Below are positions 29,436-41,645 of a stretch of 41,993 nucleotides of DNA, one piece after another. Positions within the stretch are counted from its first letter, which is position 1, and every line of letters starts with the position of its first letter. This DNA is from Nitrospira sp. GTDB lineage: Bacteria; Nitrospirota; Nitrospiria; Nitrospirales; Nitrospiraceae. The translations under genes and the position numbers were made by a program. The notes below the pieces were generated by a model, which was given only the letters and a program-made list of their open reading frames with translations, made no database searches and was not told where the DNA came from. The stretch lies in NCBI GenBank assembly GCA_021323395.1, contig JAJONL010000010.1, positions 1 through 41,993 of the forward strand. The letters are read 5' to 3'.

Positions 29436-29458
29436 CCCGTGAGAAGAAATGGTGAGAG

Positions 29459-29498
29459 AGTCGGCTGAAGGTCTGCTGGATGGGCGTTTCAGCCGACT
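29459..29498. terminator. Bidirectional hairpin between convergent genes
   Basis: AGTCGGCTGAA (29459-29469) and TTCAGCCGACT (29488-29498) form a perfect 11-bp stem with an 18-base loop, between the stop at 29435 (plus) and the stop at 29497 (minus). There is no long T run, so termination efficiency is uncertain. Confidence 0.5.
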
Positions 29499-30225
29499 AC
29501 TTTACGAGCCAGACACGGTAGGTTTTCGTATTCAGGGGTTTGGCGACCTTCAGGGTTCTGACCTCGCCGGGATACATCACATCATCACCGGTCGCAGTCT
29601 TTCTTGCCGGATGGCTGATGCTCCTCAACAGCGTGCCCTGGTCATCGTAGAAATCCACCATGACATCCGCCGCTTCCCGCAGGGTGCCCTGATAGGCCGT
29701 CCCGAGCCAATCGAGTCGTTTGAGCGCCTGATAGACGATAATCACGGTGCCGTCTGGATCCTCGCGCACGGTGAGGATCCTCAGCGCCCTGTTCTGATCC
29801 AGCCCCGCCTCCGCTCCAGCCGCGGTCTGAGCGAGAAGTACTCGTTCCACTTCATCCGGGCGAAACACTGCCTTCACCTTGCAGTATACGGTGCGGCCCT
29901 TTTCGCTCTGCTGCAAAATCTGCTGCTCGCTGACATGGTTCGAGGCCAACGTATGGATCAGGTTATGAAAGAATTTTGAATCGATCATCGAAGCCGTGCG
30001 CTCGCGCACCGCATGGGTGGTACTGATGGCCTGACGCAACGCCTCCAAGCAGGCAAGTTGTTTGGCTTCCGCAGCGGTCTCGGGCTCGTGATAGGCGTAC
30101 CGGTAATCCCCGATGATTTCAATTGCGGGGCTTTCGGAAAATCCTAGGGGAGGTGCGAGGAACATGAGGGTTTGGGACAAGACAAGCAGGGCGTTGCTTC
30201 CTAAGATGGACCACACACGGGTCAT
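29497..30225 (-). CDS. Exported protein of unknown function
   Basis: A 242-residue protein from the ATG at 30225 (GGTGG upstream; a GTG three codons earlier is possible). A hydrophobic segment at about 8-30 is the signal peptide. The segment GDYRYAYHEPETAAEAKQLA is followed by a helix, a layout seen in LPP20-like or similar stress-linked envelope proteins in which an N-terminal helix is formed by an EAxxxAxxxAL pattern. The C-terminal part (about 150-242) is beta-rich. One Cys pair (about 59 and 117) may form a disulfide. No catalytic motif. It lies convergent to the SPFH gene and divergent from the glucanotransferase operon. Confidence 0.8.
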   Translation of the reverse strand: MTRVWSILGSNALLVLSQTLMFLAPPLGFSESPAIEIIGDYRYAYHEPETAAEAKQLACLEALRQAISTTHAVRERTASMIDSKFFHNLIHTLASNHVSEQQILQQSEKGRTVYCKVKAVFRPDEVERVLLAQTAAGAEAGLDQNRALRILTVREDPDGTVIIVYQALKRLDWLGTAYQGTLREAADVMVDFYDDQGTLLRSISHPARKTATGDDVMYPGEVRTLKVAKPLNTKTYRVWLVK

Positions 30226-30590
30226 AGGGGCCACCTATCCTTCTGTGATGGGCTTCACATCTACCTTTCCTACACTTGGGAGCGCGCCATTCTCTTCTTA
30301 TGCTACCACGCACGACGGGCGGCAGCAATGCGACTCAGTCTCGCGAAGCCGCCAGGCGTTCGGTGATCGCTCCGTTGGTGGAGGGCGGCATCTTTCCGCT
30401 TGATCAGTGACGAGACATAGGAGAACAGCCGCTTCAGGTCGAGCTCTCGGCTTGTTATTCAAGGTCATGGCCGCACTGAAACTCTTGAGTCGGCACCGCA
30501 CTGATCGAGGCGGGATTGCCGCAAGGTTGCGAGAAACCCGTGGACGCCTTGACTTGCCCCCCGTCTTCACTCACACTCTGGCATCACCCT
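30226..30590. other. Divergent intergenic stretch of about 365 bases
   Basis: It should hold promoters for the exported-protein gene (minus) and the malQ operon (plus). No consensus sigma-70 or sigma-54 site (GG-N10-GC) was recognised. The malQ frame is open through the last part (TTG at 30516 and GTG at 30540 are in frame), so part of it may be coding. Confidence 0.45.
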
Positions 30591-32855
30591 ATGTACGACG
30601 GCACCGAGCAAGACCTGCTTCGCCTCCTCGCCTCGCGGGCCGGAATCTCTCCTGAGTATCACGACATCGCCGGCACTTTGCATCTGACCAGCGACGACAC
30701 CACGCGGGCTATCTTATCCGCGATGGGGTTTCGTGTCGATTCACGCGAGTCGCTCGCGCAGGAACTCAGCAGCTGGGATGCGGCTGTTTGGCAACGACCT
30801 TGTGATCCCATTCTCATCGTTCAGCAGGGGTATGATGCGGTTCAATGGTCGCTGCGCCTCCTGCTGGAAAGCCAGGACGAACAAAGCCTGGCGGTGACGT
30901 GGTACCTGTCTGATGAGAAAGGTGTGGTTATTCATCGCGCGGAAGCCGGCCCGGGCCTGGTCCCGCAAGAAGAACGAGATGTGGCGGGGCGCCGTGCGCT
31001 GTGCTTTCAACTGCCTCTGCCCCCAGACCTGCCGCTGGGCTATTATGACCTGTCGGTGGTAGCCAGAAGCAACAAGGGTGACACGAAGGGACTGCTTCGG
31101 GTCGTCGTCGCTCCACCGCACTGTTATGTGCCTGACGCTATGGCCAAGGGCGGACGAGTGTGGGGCCTGGCCGTGCAACTGTACTCGCTGCGATCGCAGA
31201 CCAACTGGGGGGTGGGAGATTTTACGGATTTGGCTCGATTAGTGGAATGGGCGGGGAGGGATTTGGGCGCCGGGATCATCGGCCTGAATCCGTTACATGC
31301 ATTGAAGAACTCACGTCCCCACCATCTCAGTCCCTATTCACCGACCAGTCGGCTCTTCTTGAATGAACTCTACATCGATCTCGAACGCTTGCCTGAGTAT
31401 CGTTCTTCGCCGGACGCGCAGCGGCTGCGCAATAGTCCCGAGTTCCAGAAAGACCTTGAGCGGGTTCGTCAGTCCGACCGTGTGGACTCCGAGTCGGTGG
31501 TGAAGGCGAAACGCACCATGTTGGATTTCGCGTACCGGCAGTTTCTCAAGGAGAATTACACGGGTGCCGAGCCCTCCTTGCAACCGACCAGCGCTCGTGG
31601 GTGGTTGTTGGAACGATTCATTCGAGACGAGGGGGACTCGCTGGAGCGGTTCGCATTGTTTCAAGTTCTGGAAGAAGAGCGGCGTTTGGTCGAACTGGCT
31701 CCCAAGCTGTGGCCCGAATGGCCCGAGCAGTATCGAACTCCTCAGACACTCGCCTTGCGGGAATTTGCGAAACGACATCGCAAGCGGGTCCGGTTTTTTC
31801 AATACATGCAGTGGGTGGCAGCCGATCAACTCAAAGACGCGAAGGCTCGCGCCGCGCAAGTGCACATGGCTGTCGGGCTCTATCCGGATCTGGCGCTGGG
31901 GAGCGATCGTAATGGTGGCGAAGCCTGGATGCTCCAGGATGTCCTGGCATTGGGCGCGGACTGCGGCGCCCCTCCCGATGCCTTCGCTCCCCAAGGCCAG
32001 AACTGGGGCTTCGCGCCCTTTCACCCGCTTCGTCTGAAGGCGACGGGTTATCGATCCTTCGTGGAATTGTTGCGAAAAACACTCCGTCAGGGTGGGGCGG
32101 TTCGCATCGACCATGTCATGATGTTGTTCCGCTTGTTCTGGGTACCCCGCGGGCTGACAGCGGCGGCGGGAGCCTATGTGCAGTATCCGGCCGAAGACCT
32201 GCTGAGTCTTCTCGCTCTGGAAAGTACGCGCGCTCAGACCCTCGTGATCGGGGAGGATTTGGGCACCGTACCTGATTACGTGCGGGAGCAACTCGCGCGG
32301 TACAAGATTCTGTCTTACCGCGTGTTCTATTTCGAGAGAAACTGGAATGATGGGTCCTTCAATCCTCCCTCTGCCTATCCTGAGCAATCTCTGGCCGTCG
32401 TCACCACGCACGATCTGCCCACGCTTTCCGGCTACTGGACCGGGGAGGATATCCGCCTCCGCGCGAGCCTCGGCATGTATCCGAGCGAAGAGTCACGTCA
32501 ACAGGCTTGTGAAGAGCGGGCGCGGGACAAGAGACATATGCTTGCGGCGCTTGAGCGGGCGGGGCTGTGGCCCGCGGGTCTTAGCGATCACCTCGACCAG
32601 GTACCGGAAATGACACCGGAGCTGTGCCGTGCGATTCATGTGTACCTCGCGACTTCCCCGGCCTGGATTGTGATGGCCAACCTTGACGATGTGATCGGCG
32701 AAGTGACACAAATGAACCTTCCTGGCACACTTGACGCGTATCCGAACTGGTCTCGAAAGTTATCCCTGTCGCTGGAGGAGCTTCAACGGGATGAACGTGC
32801 GCAATGGCTCGCCGCGGCGGTGCGATCTCTTCGTTCTCCTGCCGGCACTTCATAG
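30591..32855 (+). CDS. malQ: 4-alpha-glucanotransferase (amylomaltase)
   Basis: A 754-residue GH77 enzyme that moves glucan chains between malto-oligosaccharides, in the cytoplasm. The N-terminal 180 residues contain the extra beta-sandwich domains of the long E. coli-type enzyme (694 residues). The barrel has the expected catalytic segments: VRIDHVMMLFR with the nucleophile Asp, GEDLGTVP with the acid/base Glu, and TTHDLPTLSGYW with the third Asp. The start is uncertain: ATG at 30591 is used, but GTG at 30540 is in frame and neither has a good ribosome site. It is followed after 30 bases by a kinase gene, so it heads a three-gene unit and points to glycogen turnover. Confidence 0.93.
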   Translation: MYDGTEQDLLRLLASRAGISPEYHDIAGTLHLTSDDTTRAILSAMGFRVDSRESLAQELSSWDAAVWQRPCDPILIVQQGYDAVQWSLRLLLESQDEQSLAVTWYLSDEKGVVIHRAEAGPGLVPQEERDVAGRRALCFQLPLPPDLPLGYYDLSVVARSNKGDTKGLLRVVVAPPHCYVPDAMAKGGRVWGLAVQLYSLRSQTNWGVGDFTDLARLVEWAGRDLGAGIIGLNPLHALKNSRPHHLSPYSPTSRLFLNELYIDLERLPEYRSSPDAQRLRNSPEFQKDLERVRQSDRVDSESVVKAKRTMLDFAYRQFLKENYTGAEPSLQPTSARGWLLERFIRDEGDSLERFALFQVLEEERRLVELAPKLWPEWPEQYRTPQTLALREFAKRHRKRVRFFQYMQWVAADQLKDAKARAAQVHMAVGLYPDLALGSDRNGGEAWMLQDVLALGADCGAPPDAFAPQGQNWGFAPFHPLRLKATGYRSFVELLRKTLRQGGAVRIDHVMMLFRLFWVPRGLTAAAGAYVQYPAEDLLSLLALESTRAQTLVIGEDLGTVPDYVREQLARYKILSYRVFYFERNWNDGSFNPPSAYPEQSLAVVTTHDLPTLSGYWTGEDIRLRASLGMYPSEESRQQACEERARDKRHMLAALERAGLWPAGLSDHLDQVPEMTPELCRAIHVYLATSPAWIVMANLDDVIGEVTQMNLPGTLDAYPNWSRKLSLSLEELQRDERAQWLAAAVRSLRSPAGTS

Positions 32856-32885
32856 CCTGTGGATCCCGCGCGGCTCGGAATCCCG

Positions 32886-34037
32886 ATGAAGAGCCGGAAT
32901 CACGTCGTCCTCGCCGTCGCCGCGTGCTTGTTCCTTCTCATCGTGGCGATGGAATGGATGTTCCCCCTGAATGTGGTGGGTGCATTCGGATTCGTGCTGC
33001 CGATCTTGCTGGTGGCCACCCTTCGCAGTCGTCGTCTCATGCTTATCACGCTGGCGTTGTGTATTCTCGTCACGTTTGTCGGACTCCTCCAGCCGGGCAA
33101 GAAGCGGGAACGCTTCACCGCCGTCGTCTTCAATCGCACCATGGTGGTCTGCGTGCTGGCGGGCGTGGCTTACATCGGCGTCACATGGGAAGAACGCAAA
33201 GCGAGAGAGGAGGCGGCTCAGGCCGCTCTGGCGACACAAAGTGAACATTTGCTCCGTGCGAATACGCAGTTGGTGGAGATCAAGGATACATTGGCCCGGT
33301 CAGAACGGTTGGCGGCGCTAGGGCAACTGGTGGCCTCGGTGGCGCATGAAGTGGGCACGCCGCTGCATTCGATTGCCTGGCATGTGGAAGCCTTGGCGGA
33401 AGAGCCCGGGGTGACCGCCGAGATGCGGAAACGAATCGGCATCATCGATGAACAGTTGAATCGAGTGGTGCGCATCATTCAAGATCTTCTGTCGTCGACC
33501 CGGCAACGCAAGCCGGAGCCCACATGGTACCCTGCTGAGGGATTGGTCGAACCGGTCGTGGCCTTGCTCGAACCTGCCTACCATGCCAAGGGCGTCACGC
33601 TTCGGGCTATGGTGACGCAATCGGTGCTGGTCTGGGCGGATCCCGAAAAGATCCATCAGGTGTTGGTCAATCTGTTGACCAATGCCTTGGCTGCGACGAA
33701 TACGGGCGGGCATGCGACAGTCGAGGTGTCGACCCGCGCCGCTTCGACAGAAGAACGAGAGCGTGCATCAAGCACGGGCCGAGTAGACCTGGACACCATG
33801 GTTATCCTGGCAGTCACCGATTCCGGCTGTGGAATGCCGCGTGAAGATTTGGAGCGGGCGTTTCAGCCATTTTTTACGACGAAGGCGATCGGGAAGGGAA
33901 CCGGCTTGGGATTGTTTCTGAGCCGCGAAGCCGTCGTGGCGCACGGCGGTCAGTTGATCTTGGAAAGCGCCGTCGGGGTAGGAACCACGGTAACGGTGGT
34001 CCTTCCAGGATTGCGGTCTGATCCAGCCTCTGTTTAG
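32886..34037 (+). CDS. Membrane-bound sensor histidine kinase
   Basis: A 383-residue protein. Three membrane segments lie in the first 100 residues (about 8-24, 28-46, 50-69, with a possible fourth at 86-100), with almost no periplasmic loop, so the signal is probably read within the membrane. A coiled linker follows (about 100-138), then HisKA with SVAHEVGTPL (His154), and HATPase_c (about 250-380) with an N box VNLLTNAL and a G box GTGLGLFLS. It should phosphorylate the NtrC-type regulator encoded 12 bases downstream. The ATG at 32886 is preceded by GGAA; a GTG at 32859 is in frame. Linked to malQ by a 30-base gap. Confidence 0.93.
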   Translation: MKSRNHVVLAVAACLFLLIVAMEWMFPLNVVGAFGFVLPILLVATLRSRRLMLITLALCILVTFVGLLQPGKKRERFTAVVFNRTMVVCVLAGVAYIGVTWEERKAREEAAQAALATQSEHLLRANTQLVEIKDTLARSERLAALGQLVASVAHEVGTPLHSIAWHVEALAEEPGVTAEMRKRIGIIDEQLNRVVRIIQDLLSSTRQRKPEPTWYPAEGLVEPVVALLEPAYHAKGVTLRAMVTQSVLVWADPEKIHQVLVNLLTNALAATNTGGHATVEVSTRAASTEERERASSTGRVDLDTMVILAVTDSGCGMPREDLERAFQPFFTTKAIGKGTGLGLFLSREAVVAHGGQLILESAVGVGTTVTVVLPGLRSDPASV

Positions 34038-34049
34038 GAGAGCCAACGC

Positions 34050-35444
34050 ATGAGCCAGCCCAAACTGTTCGTGGTCGATGATGACGATGCCGCGCGTGCG
34101 CTGTTGGCCGAGGCGTTGCTGAAAGAAGGTTACGAAGTCGAAGCCTTCTCCAGCGGTCACGCCGCGGTCGAGCGTGGCAAGCAAGTCAACGTTGATGTCG
34201 TCCTCACGGACATTCGCATGGAACAAGGCGACGGCTTTCTCGTATTGAAGGAGTTCAAACGATTCAGTCCGGATACGTCCATCGTCTTGTTGACGGCGTT
34301 CGGCTCCTTAGAGGGCGCCATCGAGGCCATCAAGCAAGGCGCCTATGACTACCTCGCCAAGCCGTTCAAGAAAGAAGACATTCGCCTGGTGGTGCAACGG
34401 AGCTTGGAGCACTGCCGGCTGGTTCGCGAGAATGCTCGATTCCGAGACGACGCACGCTCGCGCGAACCCTGGTCGCAGTTGGTAGGGAGCAGCCCGGCCA
34501 TGTTGGAGGTCTACAAGCTGGTGGCCCGCGTGTCCGACGGGCGAAGCACCGTGCTCATCGAAGGAGAGAGTGGGACCGGGAAGGAATTGATCGCGCGGGC
34601 GGTGCACCTCAACAGCCCCCGTCGGGATAAGCCCTTTATTCCTGTCAACTGCGGCGCCTTGCCTGATCATCTGATGGAATCGGAAATGTTTGGGTATGAA
34701 AAGGGCGCTTTTACTGGGGCAGTGGGTGCGAAAGCCGGCCTGTTCGAAGCCGCTCACGGGGGGACGTTGTTCCTCGACGAGATCGGCGATCTCGGCCAGA
34801 CGCTCCAGGTAAAGCTACTGCGGGTGATGCAGGAACAGGAGGTACGACGTGTCGGAAGTACCTCTTCGGCGAAGGTCGATGTGCGCATCATTGCCGCGAC
34901 CAATCGGGATCTGGCCACGCTGGTGAAAGAGGGAAAGTTTCGCGATGATCTCTACTATCGACTCAACGTGGTGCGCATTGCCCTGCCGTCGTTGGCTCAG
35001 CGACAGGAGGACATTCCGATGCTCGCCCATCACTTTCTGCAAAAATATGCCAGACAATCGCTGCACGTGCGAGGCTTCTTGCCTGACACCATGGGGCTGC
35101 TGAAGCGCTATCACTGGCCGGGAAACGTGCGGGAGTTGGAGAATGCCGTCGAACGGGCGGTCTCCTTAAGCCATGGCCCGCTGCTGCTGCCCGAAGATCT
35201 GCCGGAGCCGATCAGGGCGGAACCGGAATCGGCCGAGCCCAGCAAAGGGTCGGCTGGCGGCAGAGACGACAACCCGCTTTTAACGCTGGACGAAGTGGAG
35301 AAGCGGCATCTGGCCCTGGTGTTGAAGGAGACGCGGGGCAACAAGGTCAAGGCGGCAAAAATACTTGGGATCGACCGACGCACCTTGTATCGGATGGCGG
35401 AACGATTTGGGTTGGATTTTGGGGATGAGGCCGAAGAGAAGTAA
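34050..35444 (+). CDS. NtrC-family sigma-54-dependent response regulator
   Basis: A 464-residue protein. Receiver 1-120 with acidic residues at 10-13, acceptor Asp54 and Lys104. The AAA+ domain (about 145-375) has the Walker A GESGTGKE at 172-179, the sigma-54 contact loop GAFTGA at 219-224, Walker B GGTLFLDE at 238-245 and an Arg-finger region. The C-terminal Fis-type HTH (about 418-455) is [20 protein letters not shown]. It activates sigma-54 promoters when phosphorylated, most likely by the kinase just upstream (12-base gap). Target genes are not visible here; I saw no clear sigma-54 promoter in the window. Confidence 0.95.
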
Positions 35445-35452
35445 GCGGCTCG

Positions 35453-35899
35453 TTACAGCACTCGAAGCGCATTCTTGATGCGGCGAATTTCATTCGCGGC
35501 ACTTTGCGGCAGGGGTGTCTCGGCATCTTCCCAGGAGTCAAAGACCCCATCCTTCGCACGATGAAACACTTGGAGGCGTAAGCGCGTCGAGTTCTCGTCT
35601 TGCGGCACCACTCGAGCCTCCACCCGGCTCTTACCCACGCCAAACCTCCACCGTAGGAGCCCGTCCCATGGACTTCTGATCTCCTGCCGCATGCCGGTCC
35701 TCAGATTGCCATCGACTTCTTCATCGACTCTGTAGCCCCCTTGCCTCAGGACGTCCGTCACTGCGATTTTGACCTTCTCGGAAGGAACCCGGAGCATCAC
35801 TTCCATGACGTCTAATTCCTGAAGAGGAGGCCCTGCGGCACATCCACCCAGGGCTGACATCACCAACAGCAGTAATGCGCTGGCGGCGCCGGCTCTCAT
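35453..35899 (-). CDS. Lipoprotein of unknown function
   Basis: A 148-residue protein with a signal peptide ending in the lipobox ALGG-C (about residue 20). The mature part (about 30-148) has an alpha/beta look with the motif VPSEKVKIAVTDVLRQGGY, resembling BamC-like or YbaY-like small lipoprotein domains in general layout, but no family is firmly recognised. Its ATG overlaps the end of the AsnC-type gene by four bases (ATGA), so translation is coupled. It is convergent with the NtrC-type regulator gene (8 bases between stops). Confidence 0.8.
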   Translation of the reverse strand: MRAGAASALLLLVMSALGGCAAGPPLQELDVMEVMLRVPSEKVKIAVTDVLRQGGYRVDEEVDGNLRTGMRQEIRSPWDGLLRWRFGVGKSRVEARVVPQDENSTRLRLQVFHRAKDGVFDSWEDAETPLPQSAANEIRRIKNALRVL

Positions 35900-36150
35900 T
35901 TCGGTTTTCCTTCTTGAAGGCGATAGACCATGTGCGTGTCCGTCTGGTCCACACCGGGGATTTCATGAATTTTGACGAGCACCAGCTGAGTCAATGCGTC
36001 TTGATGCGGGATTTCAACGATGGTGAAAATATCCGGCTTGCCCCAACAGGGGTCGATTTGTTTGATCTCCTTGATCGTCGTCAAGGCCTTTACGACATCC
36101 GCCGTTTGACCGGGGTGGACATTGATCAACACATAGGCTTTGTCCGGCAT
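35896..36150 (-). CDS. Stand-alone AsnC/Lrp ligand-binding domain protein
   Basis: An 84-residue protein equal to one RAM (AsnC/Lrp C-terminal) domain, without the DNA-binding half. The pattern KAYVLINVHPGQTADVVKAL and the second half LVLVKIHEIPGVDQTDTH is typical. Stand-alone RAM proteins bind amino acids or other small ligands and form dimers or octamers, and can modify the activity of full-length Lrp proteins. The ATG at 36150 has GGGAGA upstream; the longer in-frame version lacks family similarity. It is coupled to the downstream lipoprotein by a four-base overlap, an unusual pairing for a cytoplasmic sensor. Confidence 0.88.
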   Translation of the reverse strand: MPDKAYVLINVHPGQTADVVKALTTIKEIKQIDPCWGKPDIFTIVEIPHQDALTQLVLVKIHEIPGVDQTDTHMVYRLQEGKPK

Positions 36151-36275
36151 GCAGGGGATCTCCCGTGATGTGCGCGAGGATGGCGGCGTTGCCCCCCGGC
36201 GATTCGAACCTAGCGGATTGCTTCGGATGAAGTCAACCAACCTTCCCTGTTGGATGCGCGCAGCGCTGTCGTGTC

Positions 36276-37871
36276 TTATTTGGGGGCAACGATAACCTCA
36301 ACCATGTGGGTGTCACTCACGGTGGTGAGATCTGCCTCCAAACCGCGAGGGTTTCCGACTCGACCATCGGGGTCGTAGATAAAGCATAAGAGGGTGTTCC
36401 CATTCGGCCTCCGAGCGTAGCGAGCGACGTCCGACTTGACCTGTTCGGCCAAGTCCTTTGTCGCGAGTCCTGACCGAGTCTGCTTGACGATGACGATAGT
36501 CCTGTCCCAATCAAGAAGATAACTGGTGCGGCAAGCGCCATTCGTATAATCCGGAATCCACTCTTCCGTTCCCACTTCATCGAATTGTAGGCGCAGGAGC
36601 GCATAAAACAGGTCCTGCAGATCATATTCGTCGGTGAGCTCCAGGGTCGGACGGTATTCCTTCCGCAGCCGGAGTTGTCGGGCCACCAAGTGGAATCGTG
36701 TGCAGACTCGACGGAGGATCTCGAGGGTGCTGTTCTCTGGTTGCCCGCTCGCTGCGGTTGTTTTCCTGGGGGAGGAAAGCGCCGAAGGAGCTTCAGAAGA
36801 TTCCCTCGTCGGTGTCATCGGCTCGGTCGGCTTTGGGGCCGGTGAAGAAGGCGGCTGAGCGGGCCACACTTCGCTTGGGGCATGTGGAACGACAGTACAT
36901 GGGGTGTCGGGTGGCGATGGGACAGCCATACCGCCGGAGCGTTCGATCGCCGTCGCGGGAGTGAGAGGGCTGGGAGCAGACGGTAAGGCTTGGAGTGAAT
37001 CCGGAGCGTCTGGTGATAGAGCCGGTTCCGACTGTGATACCGGCGTATCCGCAGATGGGCGCCTCGTCTCCGACACGGGAGGAATGGGTCCCTGCGAAAT
37101 TATTGATGGGGTCGATGCGGAGGGGAGACTCGTTGCGGCCATGCCCGGACGTGATTCCAATGGACTCGTCGCGTTAATAGCGCATGTTGGGATTGGAGGG
37201 GCAGGAGCTGGGGGACATTGAGCTGATGTGCTTAGGACGGGCGTCGTTTTTTCAGTCGCGATTGCCGAGGGAACGTTCTCCGTTGCGCCAAGTGCCGGAG
37301 ATGATGATGGATCAGGCTCGTGGGTGTTTTCTGTTCTGCGGACCGATTCGACCGAAGCCGTGGGAGTAAGAACAGGTGAAGAGTCTACGTAGAGTGCGGG
37401 GGGCATGGCATCGGTGACAAGCGCGGGCTCATTCGGCCTTTGGGGTGAGGGAAGGTGACCGGAAGGTGTGTTGACAGGGATTGAGGTCAGCGCCGGCGGG
37501 TCCTTGGGGGGTGTCGGGGGAGCGGGTGCCGGCGATGTGAGCCCCGAAAGGTCTGTTTTCTGCCTTTCCAGGGAGGCGATCAGTTGTTTGAGAAGGGTCG
37601 TGCTCTGGATGGATTCAGCACGTGTTCCTACGCGGAGCTTGTGAGTTTTATGGGCCTGATACTCCGGTGATTTTTCACCGAAGACGCGGCGGATGGTTTC
37701 ACGAAGGGAGAGTTCGGTTCTGGCGCGCCCCGCTTCACGATAGGGAAATCCATCCCGGCTGAGGTCGTCGATTTGCATGGTGAGTTCCCGCAATTTCGCG
37801 ATGCCGTGGCTGAGTTCTTCTGCAGCGCTTAGTTTTGCCTTGCGTGGCTCACTGGCTTTAGCTCGTGCCAT
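36276..37871 (-). CDS. Proline-rich protein with a degenerate PD-(D/E)XK-like C-terminal domain
   Basis: A 531-residue protein. N-terminal helical domain 1-110 with basic residues; a linker of about 270 residues (about 112-385) made largely of Pro, Ser, Thr and Ala; then a C-terminal domain (about 385-531) that resembles, from memory, the DpnII/MboI-type PD-(D/E)XK nuclease domain found at the ends of NTPase and defence proteins (RPTLELTDEYDLQDLFYALL, then the core, then FIYDPDGRVGNPRGLE). In that family the core reads SRMDFLL...VEVKKTR; here it reads CRTSYLL...VIVKQTR, so the catalytic Asp and Glu seem replaced by Ser and Ile while Lys remains. It is probably a binding or scaffold version. 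No partner genes seen. Confidence 0.8.
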   Translation of the reverse strand: MARAKASEPRKAKLSAAEELSHGIAKLRELTMQIDDLSRDGFPYREAGRARTELSLRETIRRVFGEKSPEYQAHKTHKLRVGTRAESIQSTTLLKQLIASLERQKTDLSGLTSPAPAPPTPPKDPPALTSIPVNTPSGHLPSPQRPNEPALVTDAMPPALYVDSSPVLTPTASVESVRRTENTHEPDPSSSPALGATENVPSAIATEKTTPVLSTSAQCPPAPAPPIPTCAINATSPLESRPGMAATSLPSASTPSIISQGPIPPVSETRRPSADTPVSQSEPALSPDAPDSLQALPSAPSPLTPATAIERSGGMAVPSPPDTPCTVVPHAPSEVWPAQPPSSPAPKPTEPMTPTRESSEAPSALSSPRKTTAASGQPENSTLEILRRVCTRFHLVARQLRLRKEYRPTLELTDEYDLQDLFYALLRLQFDEVGTEEWIPDYTNGACRTSYLLDWDRTIVIVKQTRSGLATKDLAEQVKSDVARYARRPNGNTLLCFIYDPDGRVGNPRGLEADLTTVSDTHMVEVIVAPK

Positions 37872-37971
37872 ATATCCTCCGCCCCCTGCTGAAACCTGCG
37901 TTCATACCTCATGCTGTGAAGTCCAAGATGTTTTCGATGCCTCAGCCCCGGCGACGAGGCCGCGACCGACT

Positions 37972-38466
37972 TCAATCAAACCACTCGATCTCACTGTTTC
38001 CCGAAGGCGCTGATTTCTTGGGATCCGCCGAGGCAGGTGGACCAGCCAGAACCTGTCCCACCAGTGCGAGCAAGGCTTCCGTGGTAAAAGGCTTCCGAAG
38101 AAACGGCAATCCATCCCGAATCAATCCCCGGCTGAGCAAATCGGCGCCGGCGCTGCCGGACATGAGGATCACCCGGATGGCTCGTTTTTCTTCGAGGAGA
38201 CGTTCAATCATTTCGAGGCCATTGACGCGAGGATAAGGGTTGCTGTCCACCGACAGTTGAAATCCAGGAGGAGGCAGGAAAATATCGGCAATCACTAGAT
38301 TCACTGGGTGAGGGTGCTCGGCATGGATGCGCAAGGCCTCGGAACTTCCCGGCGCTGTAAGGACCGTATAACCCGCCTCCTCCAGGGGTTTCGCGCTCAG
38401 CAGCAAGGTCGACGGATCGTCATCTACAATCAAAATGATCGAAGGCTCTCTTGCGTTCGTGGCCAT
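37972..38466 (-). CDS. Single-domain response regulator with an insertion beside the active Asp
   Basis: A 164-residue protein, starting at the ATG at 38466, preceded by GAGGAGAG. The receiver has IVDDDPSTL at the start and the acceptor in VIADIFLPP, but the segment between that Asp and the NGLEM helix is about 14 residues longer than usual (DIFLPPPGFQLSVDSNP then PRVNG). The Thr/Ser and Lys (LRKPF) are in place. A short polar tail follows; there is no output domain. It may act by protein contact or as a phosphate sink. The nearest kinase candidates are those elsewhere in this window. 37 bases upstream lies the gene of an exported protein. Confidence 0.88.
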   Translation of the reverse strand: MATNAREPSIILIVDDDPSTLLLSAKPLEEAGYTVLTAPGSSEALRIHAEHPHPVNLVIADIFLPPPGFQLSVDSNPYPRVNGLEMIERLLEEKRAIRVILMSGSAGADLLSRGLIRDGLPFLRKPFTTEALLALVGQVLAGPPASADPKKSAPSGNSEIEWFD

Positions 38467-38503
38467 GGTCGACTCTCCTCTGGGGTCTCCGCACTCCACT
38501 GTA

Positions 38504-39352
38504 TTAGAACGGGCGGCGTTGGTCTTTCAGGCGCTCGTATTCGCGTTGTTCGCAACTGTTCTGTTTCGGTCGCAGGGATTCCGGAACCTCCGCAAAACGC
38601 AACATGCAATAGCGCTGTGCCTGCCGGCGCCGATCGACATCCTGTTGTTGTTCCAACTGCCGAAGGCGGGCGGTGAGGTCGATCGCTGGAAGTTCTTTGC
38701 CCACGGGATGGTCCTGCCGAAGCGCGGGGGACGTATCGTCACTGGAACGTGGATGGGGTCCGTTCAGTCGCCAATGGGTCAGCACATCGTCCTGGTTAAA
38801 GATGATGGTCAGGCCGAACTGAGAATATTCCCAGGTCAGTTCACCTCTGTCCGGGTGTGCCCAGATCGAACGAGGCAGGCCATAACGATTCCACACTTCG
38901 TCCCGCAACATCCCGACCCGCGGGGTCAGATTTCGGATCGCCGTGATCTGCGCCAGGATCGGGGAAATATCCGTCGGCCGGCTTGGAACAGGATGTTTCG
39001 TGAGGGATTCCAGCGAGGCTCGGGGGGCGCGCAAGAGTCGCCATACGGTAACCAATCCAGGCGGACAGTCCGGGGGATGGGGATCTTCGAATATCATTTG
39101 GGTATCCAATGGAAAGCCATCGACTTCTTGGGCACGGGTGAAATTCTTGACCTCCTGCACTGCGGCCATATAAGCGCGTTGACGGCCCTCTTCCACGTTC
39201 GGAGCGCACGAGGACCGGCCTGTAAAGAAGACATCGTCGCCAAAGTGAAATAGCGCTTGTTCAGTCCAGAAGGGACGGTTCTCTGCGGCCTCGGACATCG
39301 AAGTCGCGAACAGGCTGAGGCTAAAAAGTGTGGTCAGGATGGAAATGGCCAT
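38504..39352 (-). CDS. Exported protein of unknown function
   Basis: A 282-residue protein with a cleavable signal peptide (about 1-22, ending SEA-AE). The segment WTEQALFHFGDDVFFTGRSSCAPNVEEGRQRAYMAA is reported here in parts: WTEQALFHFGDD, then GRSSCAPNVEEGR, then a helix with YMAAVQEV. This resembles the N-terminal motif of envelope-stress, LPP20-like proteins. A middle part with Pro, and a beta region (about 150-205) containing WNRYGLPRSIW and LTWEYSQFGLTIIF, look like a SmpA/OmlA-type fold. The C-terminal 70 residues form a charged helix with two Cys. It follows the 229-residue lipoprotein gene on the same strand, with a gap of 167 bases. Function unknown. Confidence 0.8.
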   Translation of the reverse strand: MAISILTTLFSLSLFATSMSEAAENRPFWTEQALFHFGDDVFFTGRSSCAPNVEEGRQRAYMAAVQEVKNFTRAQEVDGFPLDTQMIFEDPHPPDCPPGLVTVWRLLRAPRASLESLTKHPVPSRPTDISPILAQITAIRNLTPRVGMLRDEVWNRYGLPRSIWAHPDRGELTWEYSQFGLTIIFNQDDVLTHWRLNGPHPRSSDDTSPALRQDHPVGKELPAIDLTARLRQLEQQQDVDRRRQAQRYCMLRFAEVPESLRPKQNSCEQREYERLKDQRRPF

Positions 39353-39519
39353 ACGCCTGCCCGTCGATCAACCGTGCATAACGGCACTCTGCAGTATAAC
39401 GCGTAGGTCGGTAAAATCGACCAAAGAGCACTTTTGTGCGCCATTCCAGATTGGGCGTAACCGAGAAAGCACTCGGGGCAGAGCGCGTCCCTTGGCGTCT
39501 GTGACAGGCAAAGGAACGG

Positions 39520-40209
39520 TCAGTAGTTCGCCGAGGGACTTGAGCCCGGACTGCCGGAGGGAGGGGAGGAGGCTTGGGGCTTGGGGAGGCTCACTTCACT
39601 CGTCATGAGCCCGGAGCCTGGAGGGCAGATATTCTCAGGCGCGCTGGCCCCGGGATTGCGCATGCCCCAGGCCGTGGCAAGAGCATGGCACGTGAGGAGG
39701 CTGATGCCTTCTTCGATGTTGCTGAATCGCTCGGTGGACTGGGCCTTGCCGCTCCATTCAATTTCACCCGTATTTACATCGACCGCTCTCAGTGCGACTG
39801 TGGCGGAGTAGACTCTCTGGCTGCGAGGAAATCCGGCACTCCAATCCAACGCTTCCCACGATCCCACTTCGGCATTGCTGAACACCACGAGCCGTGCTCC
39901 CACTAGTTTAGCCATCCGCAGCACGTCAGTTTCCAGGTACTGATATCCCGACAGGCTCACCTTTTGGTCCGCGGCGGCTTGGAGCACTTTTGTCTGATCG
40001 ACGACGAGAATGCCCTTTTTGAGCAGCCACGTGCTGGCGCTTTGGATGGTGTCGCCGCGTCCTCCCCACACCACGGCCCTGGTGTAAGGCGATGGGAGTT
40101 TCGAATGGAAACCATCCGTCGTGGGTGTCTCCACGAACGCGTATCCTCTGCAACCGGCGGTTGTCAGCAGGAGCGCGCAGAGCATCAGAGGCAGATTCAC
40201 CGTTTTCAT
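39520..40209 (-). CDS. CsgG-like lipoprotein
   Basis: A 229-residue protein with a signal peptide ending in the lipobox LTTAG-C (about residue 20). The mature part (about 45-190) reads like a CsgG/TolB-N type alpha/beta domain: VVWGGRGDTIQSASTWLLKKG followed by VLQAAADQ and, later, LVGARLVVFSNAEV and VALRAVDVNTGEIEWSGK. The last motif, a strand with DVNTGEI, is typical of such domains. CsgG-like proteins of the outer membrane bind partners or form pores, but a single small lipoprotein of this type has no assigned role. The C-terminal 30 residues are Ser/Pro-rich and disordered. Confidence 0.82.
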   Translation of the reverse strand: MKTVNLPLMLCALLLTTAGCRGYAFVETPTTDGFHSKLPSPYTRAVVWGGRGDTIQSASTWLLKKGILVVDQTKVLQAAADQKVSLSGYQYLETDVLRMAKLVGARLVVFSNAEVGSWEALDWSAGFPRSQRVYSATVALRAVDVNTGEIEWSGKAQSTERFSNIEEGISLLTCHALATAWGMRNPGASAPENICPPGSGLMTSEVSLPKPQASSPPSGSPGSSPSANY

Positions 40210-40403
40210 GGATCTCTTAGCGATGGCTTAGTGAGACTCGTCACCCGAACCAGTTTCATGACTGACTAGCAGGACAATGAGATGGGTGGTGTTCGCTGCC
40301 GTGTGCCAGTATACAGGAACGATTCTACACAGGTTGGCCGAATTCGTCGAGACGATTGGAGAAGCCGAATAGGGGGCGCCGGCTTTCGTCATCCCCAGCG
40401 CGC

Positions 40404-40421
40404 CACGTGTTATCACGTGTT
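40404..40421. promoter_or_regulatory. Tandem CACGTG palindromes, one helical turn apart
   Basis: CACGTGTT is repeated with its starts exactly ten bases apart (40404 and 40414), so two palindromic CACGTG sites fall on the same face of the helix. This is a common layout for binding of a dimeric regulator. It lies about 195 bases upstream of the lipoprotein gene that starts at 40209. No regulator is known from the sequence. Confidence 0.35.
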
Positions 40422-40435
40422 GGTACGTTGCACTG

Positions 40436-40480
40436 CCACTGCGGCAGGATCGGAGGCGGCCTCCGATCCTGCCGCAGTGG
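40436..40480. repeat. Perfect 22-bp inverted repeat
   Basis: The 22 bases from 40436, beginning CCACTGCGGCAGG, are exactly complementary to the 22 bases from 40459, with a single G between the arms. There is no T run after it on either strand. It lies 78 bases downstream of the 43-residue peptide gene and may be its terminator, a protein-binding site, or a repeat element. Only one copy is present in the window. Confidence 0.8.
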
Positions 40481-40557
40481 TGTCTGGAAGTGAGAGGAAG
40501 AAGCGGTAAGAGTGCCCGGCGAAAGGCGATTCTACTTACAGTGCAGGAGTGCGTGAT

Positions 40558-40689
40558 TCACAGGATTTCGACCTGCGGGAAGGTGCTCTGATCAGCCGTC
40601 TGTTGTGGCCGGTCCGCCATGACCATTAGCTGAATAGCGATAAACGGGACCAACGCATAGCCGATCAGGATCAACGGAAACTCAATCAT
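40558..40689 (-). CDS. 43-residue single-span membrane peptide
   Basis: A short protein with a hydrophobic segment (about 4-24; IEFPLILIGYALVPFIAIQL) and a polar, Gln-rich tail, so probably an inner-membrane peptide with a short cytoplasmic or periplasmic end. The ATG at 40689 has AAGGAG 8 nt before it, a very good ribosome site. That site is part of two alternative inverted repeats (see 40692-40787). Longer in-frame versions read through this region and lack protein character. Small membrane peptides of this kind often act as subunits or regulators of larger complexes. No partner gene is adjacent. Confidence 0.65.
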   Translation of the reverse strand: MIEFPLILIGYALVPFIAIQLMVMADRPQQTADQSTFPQVEIL

Positions 40690-40691
40690 GG

Positions 40692-40787
40692 CAGGCACTC
40701 CTTTGTTATATGGAGTGCTGCATTGCAATCCCGAGACCACAATTCCGGTTGCTCTAACGTATTGAATAGAATAGGAAGGAGTGCCTG
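40692..40787 (-). promoter_or_regulatory. Ribosome-site-masking inverted repeats
   Basis: On the transcript of the 43-residue gene, AAGGAGTGCCTG (40703-40692) contains the ribosome site. It is perfectly complementary over 12 bases to CAGGCACTCCTT (40787-40776), about 70 bases upstream. A shorter partner, GCACTCC (40718-40712), sits in between and can pair with the same GGAGTGC over 7 bases with a 10-base loop. The two pairings exclude each other, and both would mask the ribosome site. Confidence 0.5.
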
Positions 40788-40940
40788 ACTGGCTACAAGG
40801 CACGGGGAATGACAGGGAGGAGATGGAGAAACTTGTGCAATCAGAACACTTTGCGCTGAGCCAAAGGGCCTAAGGGTGGCCGGGTCGGCGCCACACCCAA
40901 AAGGATATTCTTGCGAAACCCTGGTTTGAAGCCGCCTTCT

Positions 40941-41645
40941 TTAATCAGTGCTGTTTCCTTGGTCACAGTATAACCCGGGGCTCACACGACCCGCATTCCA
41001 CTTCCAGTACGTACAAAAATCGGTGTGATGTGATTCATTGAAGATGTCGCGATAACATACCCGGCCATGGAAATACACGGCGGCTTTTCCGTCTTTGATG
41101 GCCTCGACCTCACTGGCGGTGAAGGGCGCCTCCCTCACGGTTTCAGGACGGGAAACTTTTCCGACGAACCATTTACTCGCGTTTGGAGTGGTGCGGGCAT
41201 GGCTACATTCATCATTGACAAGCTTTTTAGCCAGCGGGTATTCGGCCACGGTCACATGCGCACTCGACCCATTGTCGTAAGCGGGGGTACGCCCGATATT
41301 GTGAAAGCTGTCATGGACGCGCGGCATGAGGCCTTCTTCGATTCTCGTCATTCCTTTAGCTCTCACGTCGATATAGGCTCGCAATTGTAATTTGGCTTCT
41401 TCTTGAGCAATATAATTTTGCCAACCGGGAAAGCCGGCCGCGACGGCGGCAACGATCGCCCCAACAATGCCTACCCAAAAAATCGCGAGCTTAAGCCTAA
41501 ATCGATTGTCTTCTTTTCCACGGGGCGACTGCGAGGGGGAATTCGGCGTCAGGTACGCCTCGCCCGTTCCCTGAGCCGGACCGAGGCCGGGGTCAGGTGG
41601 TGGACTGCTTTGGCCGGTCGCATTGTCGGGCTCTTTGTCGTCCAT
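40941..41645 (-). CDS. Single-span membrane protein with a periplasmic domain
   Basis: A 234-residue protein. A polar, Pro/Ser-rich N-terminal tail (1-48) is followed by one hydrophobic segment (about 52-72; AIFWVGIVGAIVAAVAAGF) and then a soluble domain (about 75-234) with four or five Cys that may form disulfides. The Arg/Lys-rich run before the membrane segment suggests that the N-terminus faces the cytoplasm. The domain layout (YIDVRAKGMTRIEEG, then an extended beta part and YFHGRVCYRDIF) is one I have seen in many uncharacterised bacterial proteins. No enzyme motif. It stands alone. Confidence 0.82.
   Translation of the reverse strand: MDDKEPDNATGQSSPPPDPGLGPAQGTGEAYLTPNSPSQSPRGKEDNRFRLKLAIFWVGIVGAIVAAVAAGFPGWQNYIAQEEAKLQLRAYIDVRAKGMTRIEEGLMPRVHDSFHNIGRTPAYDNGSSAHVTVAEYPLAKKLVNDECSHARTTPNASKWFVGKVSRPETVREAPFTASEVEAIKDGKAAVYFHGRVCYRDIFNESHHTDFCTYWKWNAGRVSPGLYCDQGNSTD

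Follow-up and report, generated by a model that had tools for sequence, protein, structure and literature searches.

A PD-(D/E)XK nuclease domain apparently inactivated throughout the Nitrospira family and probably retained as a tethered binding module

The window, by which we mean the whole 41,993-nucleotide stretch of Nitrospira DNA analysed here, carries a gene that is single-copy in its 3.5-Mb genome and encodes the protein P0001, whose domains, active-site positions and neighbouring genes are given in Table 1. Residues 385–531 score 165.5 bits on the Pfam profile PF18742 (REase_DpnII-MboI), for which the cut-off is 27, and the match spans profile positions 2–150 of 150. This is the only Pfam domain in the protein; PF09509 was not found there, no Pfam model scored above its cut-off on residues 1–124, and an NCBIfam search with P0001 returned nothing. 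The 270 residues of the linker include 62 prolines (23%), 40 serines, 34 alanines and 29 threonines, and in 81 orthologs its length ranges from 46 to 307 residues, with a median of 217 and a proline content of 25%. A basal ortholog (L079:6731–6916, minus strand) has a second, partial match to the N-terminal domain within the linker, at residues 190–251.

Table 1. Features of the P0001 gene and its conserved neighbours, in window coordinates
Feature	Position	Strand	Basis or remark
Whole gene P0001, 531 aa	36276..37871	(-)	One open frame, 531 codons
N-terminal helical domain, residues 1–110, with conserved basic tail MARxK..	37542..37871	(-)	AlphaFold2, profile A4, dN/dS
Pro/Ala/Ser/Thr-rich linker, residues 111–380	36732..37541	(-)	Composition, dN/dS
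C-terminal PD-(D/E)XK-fold domain, PF18742-derived, residues 381–531	36279..36731	(-)	Pfam, AlphaFold2, structural neighbours, dN/dS
Ser450, position of the catalytic Asp	36522..36524	(-)	Alignment with relatives
Ile461, position of the catalytic Glu of ExK	36489..36491	(-)	Alignment with relatives
Lys463, position of the catalytic Lys, retained	36483..36485	(-)	Alignment with relatives
Sigma-54 response regulator, convergent, conserved neighbour	34050..35444	(+)	Near the gene in at least 48/56 loci, 15 genera
Small lipoprotein-like neighbour, no Pfam match	35453..35899	(-)	At least 40/56 loci, 12 genera
Downstream gene, Lrp/AsnC ligand-binding domain	35896..36240	(-)	PF01037, 39 bits; at least 31/56 loci, 8 genera

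The C-terminal domain was modelled with AlphaFold2 from the last 154 residues of P0001 and 19 relatives, giving a pLDDT of 89.2 and a pTM of 0.85. The model consists of helices 5–28 and 38–52, strands 57–61, 71–76 and 81–87, helix 94–109, strand 116–122, helix 131–138 and strand 146–152, and contains the PD-(D/E)XK core of a helix, a three-strand meander, a helix and a strand. Type II restriction enzymes head the list of structural matches produced by VIA-align: BglII (Z 7.7, rmsd 4.4, 124 aligned), BstYI (Z 7.3, rmsd 4.5, 128 aligned) and BamHI (Z 6.1, rmsd 5.0, 127 aligned). CinB (7et0_C) is fifth in the list (Z 6.8, rmsd 3.7, 120 aligned), and further rows contain McrBC, Can2, OkrAI and EndoMS. 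Since all of these matches have Z below 8 and Foldseek returned no match to the model at E ≤ 0.001, the PD-(D/E)XK assignment is carried by the Pfam match, with the predicted structure in support. A sequence search of solved structures revealed no real relative of P0001, only a chance hit (0.43). The N-terminal domain is predicted to form four helices, at residues 16–37, 45–64, 69–74 and 84–108 (pLDDT 83.2); its structural neighbours are assorted helical bundles (top Z 10.4, rmsd 3.3, 97 aligned), which may reflect a common arrangement only and from which we claim nothing. The architecture put forward in the original prediction, a nuclease-like domain of the DpnII/MboI type joined to a helical N-terminal domain by a 270-residue proline-rich linker, is thus borne out, its nuclease-like part both by the profile match and by the PD-(D/E)XK-like fold of the model.

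It had also been predicted that the catalytic Asp and Glu read Ser and Ile and that only the Lys is kept. Alignment with relatives places exactly these residues, Ser450, Ile461 and Lys463, at the catalytic positions: intact relatives mostly read R-[IVLM]-D-F ... (I/V)-E-x-K, where P0001 reads CRTSYLL ... IVIVK. We compared 98 distinct PF18742-related domains, identical rows having been collapsed. The D-E-K triad is intact in 0 of the 85 that come from the window's family and in all 13 of the remainder, which comprise seven outgroup loci (L046–L052), three domains (L123–L125) that are more divergent and come from other families in the phylum, and extra copies in three genomes (G018, G083 and G105). 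It is likewise intact in 12 of 12 relatives on viral contigs (11 distinct). Asp occupies its catalytic position in 9/85 orthologs and Glu in 2/85, against 16/16 in each case for intact relatives having the column, a count that excludes the viral rows L199, L200, L201 and L205; the two acids occur together in none of the 85, while the Lys is present in 79. At the Asp position, family members have turned to S, T, A, G, M, R, V or Y. Because close relatives read Ser or Thr and Val at these positions and no ortholog is intact, the S450/I461 state is, on the evidence of the alignment, no sequencing error. Taking alignment and model together, we consider the C-terminal domain of P0001 very probably catalytically dead.

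Activity could nevertheless persist if the metal site were rearranged so that the Glu came from the following helix. In Cfr10I, NgoMIV and EcoRII, this residue sits 13 or 14 positions past the Lys, in the helix that follows the ExK strand. Helix αB of P0001 indeed carries an acid at K+13 (E476, with D/E in 78/85 orthologs), and the acids at positions 414 and 417 are invariant. However, on a helical wheel whose hydrophobic face is set by residues 474, 478, 482 and 485, E476 appears to face the solvent, while K+14 would lie on the flank of the inward face, opposite E476, and is Gln in 81/85 orthologs. D414 and D417 are just as invariant in the intact relatives and are therefore no replacements, and no compensating acid was seen on the neighbouring strand for the changed Asp position. 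The geometry of such a site is read from a predicted model. Alignment and model offer one candidate, E476, for restoring the metal site from another acidic column, and it is not convincing. With E476 apparently directed outwards and the acids at 414 and 417 shared with intact rows, we hold the domain to be inactive and regard a rearranged, working site as very improbable. Neither of the outcomes named beforehand as counting against the original prediction, another Asp and Glu in the metal site or the lack of a PD-(D/E)XK match, was found.

The history of the active site was followed on a maximum-likelihood tree, for which the three catalytic columns were masked and the four viral rows named above and the divergent intact rows L123, L124, L125 and L129 were omitted. 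A single branch (bootstrap 97, SH-aLRT 86), present in 98% of 200 bootstrap trees, separates the 85 family rows from the others; resolution among the basal branches is poor. Parsimony on this tree gives one change for the triad state as a whole, and 3, 3 and 5 changes at the Asp, Glu and Lys positions, respectively. Basal genera differ in state, reading D-V-K, D-I-K, D-Q-K, D-S-R, D-T-R, D-V-I, Y-E-K (L071) and G-E-R (L072). As nine rows have Asp without Glu and two have Glu without Asp, a single inactivating substitution is insufficient unless residues were regained. We read this pattern as suggesting that the family ancestor could already do without catalysis, which then disappeared more than once, although by parsimony one basal loss of Glu with two regains fits the change count equally well. 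Inactivation appears in the alignment to be family-wide and to have come about by different losses in different lineages. These features, together with the core-gene status described below, lie beyond what the original prediction could see in the sequence.

Active-site residues that vary between lineages might also be expected of a decaying pseudogene, and a few broken frames do occur: L081 and L128 have the domain in another frame, and the match in G022 contains two inner stops. Yet the frames are open in nearly all of the listed genomes, and invariant residues are found in 85/85 rows. Pairwise comparisons within the window's genus put the median dN/dS of the dead nuclease domain at 0.076 (83 pairs), that of the N-terminal domain at 0.091 (205 pairs) and that of the linker at 0.513 (106 pairs), values that were taken only from pairs with dS between 0.05 and 1.5 (83, 205 and 106 of at most 276) and that are to be read with dS near saturation and the pairs non-independent. 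The contrast between 0.076 in the dead domain and 0.51 in the linker indicates that the former is under strong purifying selection and not decaying, and refutes the pseudogene for the window's genus; we give this explanation practically no credence. The linker, which varies in length and evolves fast, seems to behave as a spacer would.

Of the 147 family genomes, 129 (about 90%) contain a match to P0001, a figure that includes a genome with the N-terminal domain only (G019, at least one such) and a marginal case (G006); among the 109 good ones, 99 do. A phylum-wide draw of 295 genomes contained 79 family members by row count; PF18742 (E ≤ 1e-10) was detected in 76 of the 295, made up of 72 from the family and 4 from outside it, and the N-terminal profile A4 in 73, all of them in the window's family. 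Searches of plasmids with the N-terminal domain and of phages with P0001 gave no match, and a profile search for the N-terminal domain in four distant genomes found none, which shows little.

Gene neighbourhoods were compared at 56 loci whose flanks differ in length, so that the counts given here and in Table 1 are lower bounds. In addition to the tabulated neighbours, a homologue of the glucanotransferase MalQ lies near the gene in at least 49/56 loci (15 genera) and a histidine kinase homologue in at least 41/56 (12 genera). Judged by its gene content and distribution, the locus is a vertically kept core chromosomal block and not a mobile or defence island. The AsnC-domain gene seems to be simply a conserved neighbour, and joint action with P0001 is no part of our claim. 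Promoter- and terminator-like sites were no commoner than in shuffled sequences, and operon structure is therefore not argued from them. The two upstream genes on the minus strand of the window (38504–39352 and 39520–40209), which have no Pfam match, keep this position in 10 and 11 of the 56 loci, all of them from the window's genus or from one further genus. In eight genera (L053–L091 and L126–L142), the gene sits downstream of a transporter-like block, which we take to resemble GldG/DUF4340-type ABC transporter blocks and which is absent beside it in the window.

The origin of the protein can be approached through its N-terminal domain. In G019, its fusion partner is PF09509 Hypoth_Ymh (119.1 bits) instead of PF18742, and a second fusion of this kind occurs in G079. 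The genes concerned (L173:6077–7063, minus strand, and L178:1060–1875, plus strand) encode the N-terminal domain followed by a HEPN-type Ymh domain with an RNPRxH motif, and their products are likely to be toxin-type effectors with an undescribed helical module. Profile comparison relates the N-terminal domain of P0001 to the N-termini of the two Ymh proteins with 99.5% probability, and these in turn to the N-termini of intact PF18742 proteins (L073, L074 and L195–L197) with 93.8% probability and a score of 45.9, the highest of 40 column shuffles reaching 19.7. Compared directly, P0001 and the intact PF18742 proteins resemble each other only weakly at their N-termini (16.8%, score 24.0, highest shuffle 15.7), so that the link runs through the Ymh proteins. 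The N-terminus of L046 gave no match to the N-terminal domain (0.2–0.5% probability), and a scan of viral contigs with the L073 N-terminus found no relative. Since the N-terminal domain is common to the Ymh proteins and, remotely, to intact PF18742 proteins, we think it likely that P0001 descends from a defence-type effector, in which a helical module joined to an effector domain would be the ancestral plan.

The Ymh effectors (L173/L177 and L178) differ from P0001 in that their C-terminus is a HEPN RNase-type domain with an R-x4-H motif, and the G019 gene (L173 tested) lies outside the conserved block. Those parts of PMC3710099 that bear on the question describe Ymh as a HEPN family with a conserved catalytic motif, report its fusion to AbiJ-NTD modules and recognise a helical module common to DpnII/MboI, HEPN and other REase proteins. 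By that description the DpnII/MboI-NTD and AbiJ-NTD modules have similar partners to the domain seen here, at whose residues no Pfam model exceeds its cut-off. Chromosomes, plasmids and viral contigs all carry PF18742 nucleases, either stand-alone or joined to N-terminal domains. A second PF18742 protein, with D-E-K intact, is encoded by two genomes of the window's genus (L073:5741–6595, plus strand, in G018 and L074 in G083); the G018 copy has a phage integrase gene and a weak match to nucleoside 2-deoxyribosyltransferase close by, the dead core copy being elsewhere in the genome. Twelve IMG/VR contigs (L195–L206) encode intact PF18742 proteins, several with the L073-type N-terminal module, which suggests that effectors of this kind are spread with the DNA of viruses or prophages. 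A relationship to the Argonaute-associated helical-REase was considered and rejected: the best score to PADLOC Aga_Helical-REase, 63.3 bits, falls on profile positions 230–373 of 378, that is, on the nuclease domain alone. No PIWI/Argonaute hit was obtained among the ten neighbouring frames from 29452 to 41645.

The occurrence of the N-terminal domain in two Ymh/HEPN proteins from its own bacterial family raises the idea that P0001 is a regulatory decoy or guard, pairing through the helical domain with active effectors that also possess it and either holding them inactive or sensing their trigger, and intact PF18742 copies that might serve as partners are present in G018, G083 and G105. The distribution of the genes argues otherwise. 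P0001 is in nearly all genomes, yet Ymh domains occur in 19/147, only two of the Ymh proteins found carry the N-terminal domain, the window's genome holds no PF18742 gene but the dead one, and the locus is a core block and not a defence island. We consider this explanation unlikely.

The residues most conserved in the dead clade include R392, H394, R401, R403, R407, W438, Y442, T465, G468, Q477, D481, F497, Y499, D500, R504, E512, P530 and K531. Several of them vary in the intact relatives, for which the frequencies are slightly low in that the rows L199, L200, L201 and L205 lack the active-site columns; this suggests that a surface has been kept for something new. Binding without cutting is the simplest role for which fold, surface and tether would all be needed while the metal would not, and by analogy the balance tips slightly towards a binding or tethering function. 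Overall, P0001 is, in our judgement, probably a domesticated pseudonuclease that serves as a binding module on a tether. Its ancestor would have been a two-domain defence-type effector of helical N-terminal domain and nuclease; a second, non-catalytic role would have become fixed in the family ancestor, whereupon catalysis could be dispensed with and disappeared by more than one route. In the present protein, the helical domain would make one contact, forming an oligomer or engaging a partner, the extended proline-rich linker would provide a tether under low constraint, and the dead nuclease domain would hold a ligand, nucleic acid or protein, by its conserved surface without cutting.

The C-terminal domain contains 21 K/R and 23 D/E, for a net charge of −2, and with no net positive charge DNA binding is not favoured on this ground; that the ligand is nucleic acid rather than protein seems to us doubtful. 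Of the original proposal of a DNA- or protein-binding scaffold derived from a nuclease, the nuclease ancestry stands, whereas the scaffold role is conjectural and its DNA-binding form is not favoured by the charge. We also entertain, though more in speculation than in expectation, a bolder history, in which this nitrite-oxidiser family acquired a phage-defence-type effector at its root and its nuclease was repeatedly switched off with the fold retained, to leave a near-universal, flexible two-headed tether whose dead nuclease head recognises a cellular nucleic acid or complex. On that history, a defence toxin would have been turned into a housekeeping binding factor.

P0001 resembles the PF18742 REase_DpnII-MboI nucleases in sequence family, fold, the invariant DE.D.QD-type helix motif and the Lys, but differs from the active members in the loss of both acidic ligands, the long proline-rich linker, the core locus and vertical descent in one family. 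Its C-terminal domain, as alignment and model indicate, is descended from PF18742 PD-(D/E)XK nucleases with both acidic metal ligands lost, and P0001 would be classed as a catalytically dead PF18742 derivative, a member by descent that stands outside the active nucleases. The Rpb5 jaw and Eme1 are cases of a nuclease-like fold serving binding within a complex. Rpb5-type and Mus81-Eme1 chains are present in the structural lists of P0001, where the likeness is one of fold and we claim no sequence relation.

Pseudonucleases and inactive PD-(D/E)XK domains are already known, as far as the relevant portions of PMC8097288 and PMC12687446 describe them. Fungal Ssd1/Dis3L2 appears to work in a like manner, the nuclease fold being kept and catalysis repeatedly lost within one lineage, with a second, binding function retained, and the account given in part of PMC8097288 proposes that the nuclease-independent function of Ssd1 came first and that active-site mutations arose at least four times. 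Those proteins have an RNase II fold, are eukaryotic and, in the same source, have RNA binding shown experimentally, in all of which they are unlike P0001, and we claim no homology. Wolbachia CidB/CinB, in the sections of PMC12687446 concerned, have PD-(D/E)XK domains without catalytic residues, as in P0001, but belong to a different family of toxin-like proteins, and the match is structural only. A literature search found no paper naming PF18742 or P0001.

A nuclease inactivated across a family, through the loss of different residues and with its fold under strong selection, would provide a clean natural case of the passage from cutting to binding. P0001 is in any event an unnamed core protein of nitrifying bacteria (Nitrospira) that is worth targeting. 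'Restriction endonuclease' annotations based on PF18742 in Nitrospira-family genomes should not be taken to denote active defence. In a separate matter of annotation, PF18742 genes on plasmids of Enterobacter, Klebsiella and Pantoea (H12 and H14–H16) are labelled 'malate dehydrogenase', apparently in error.
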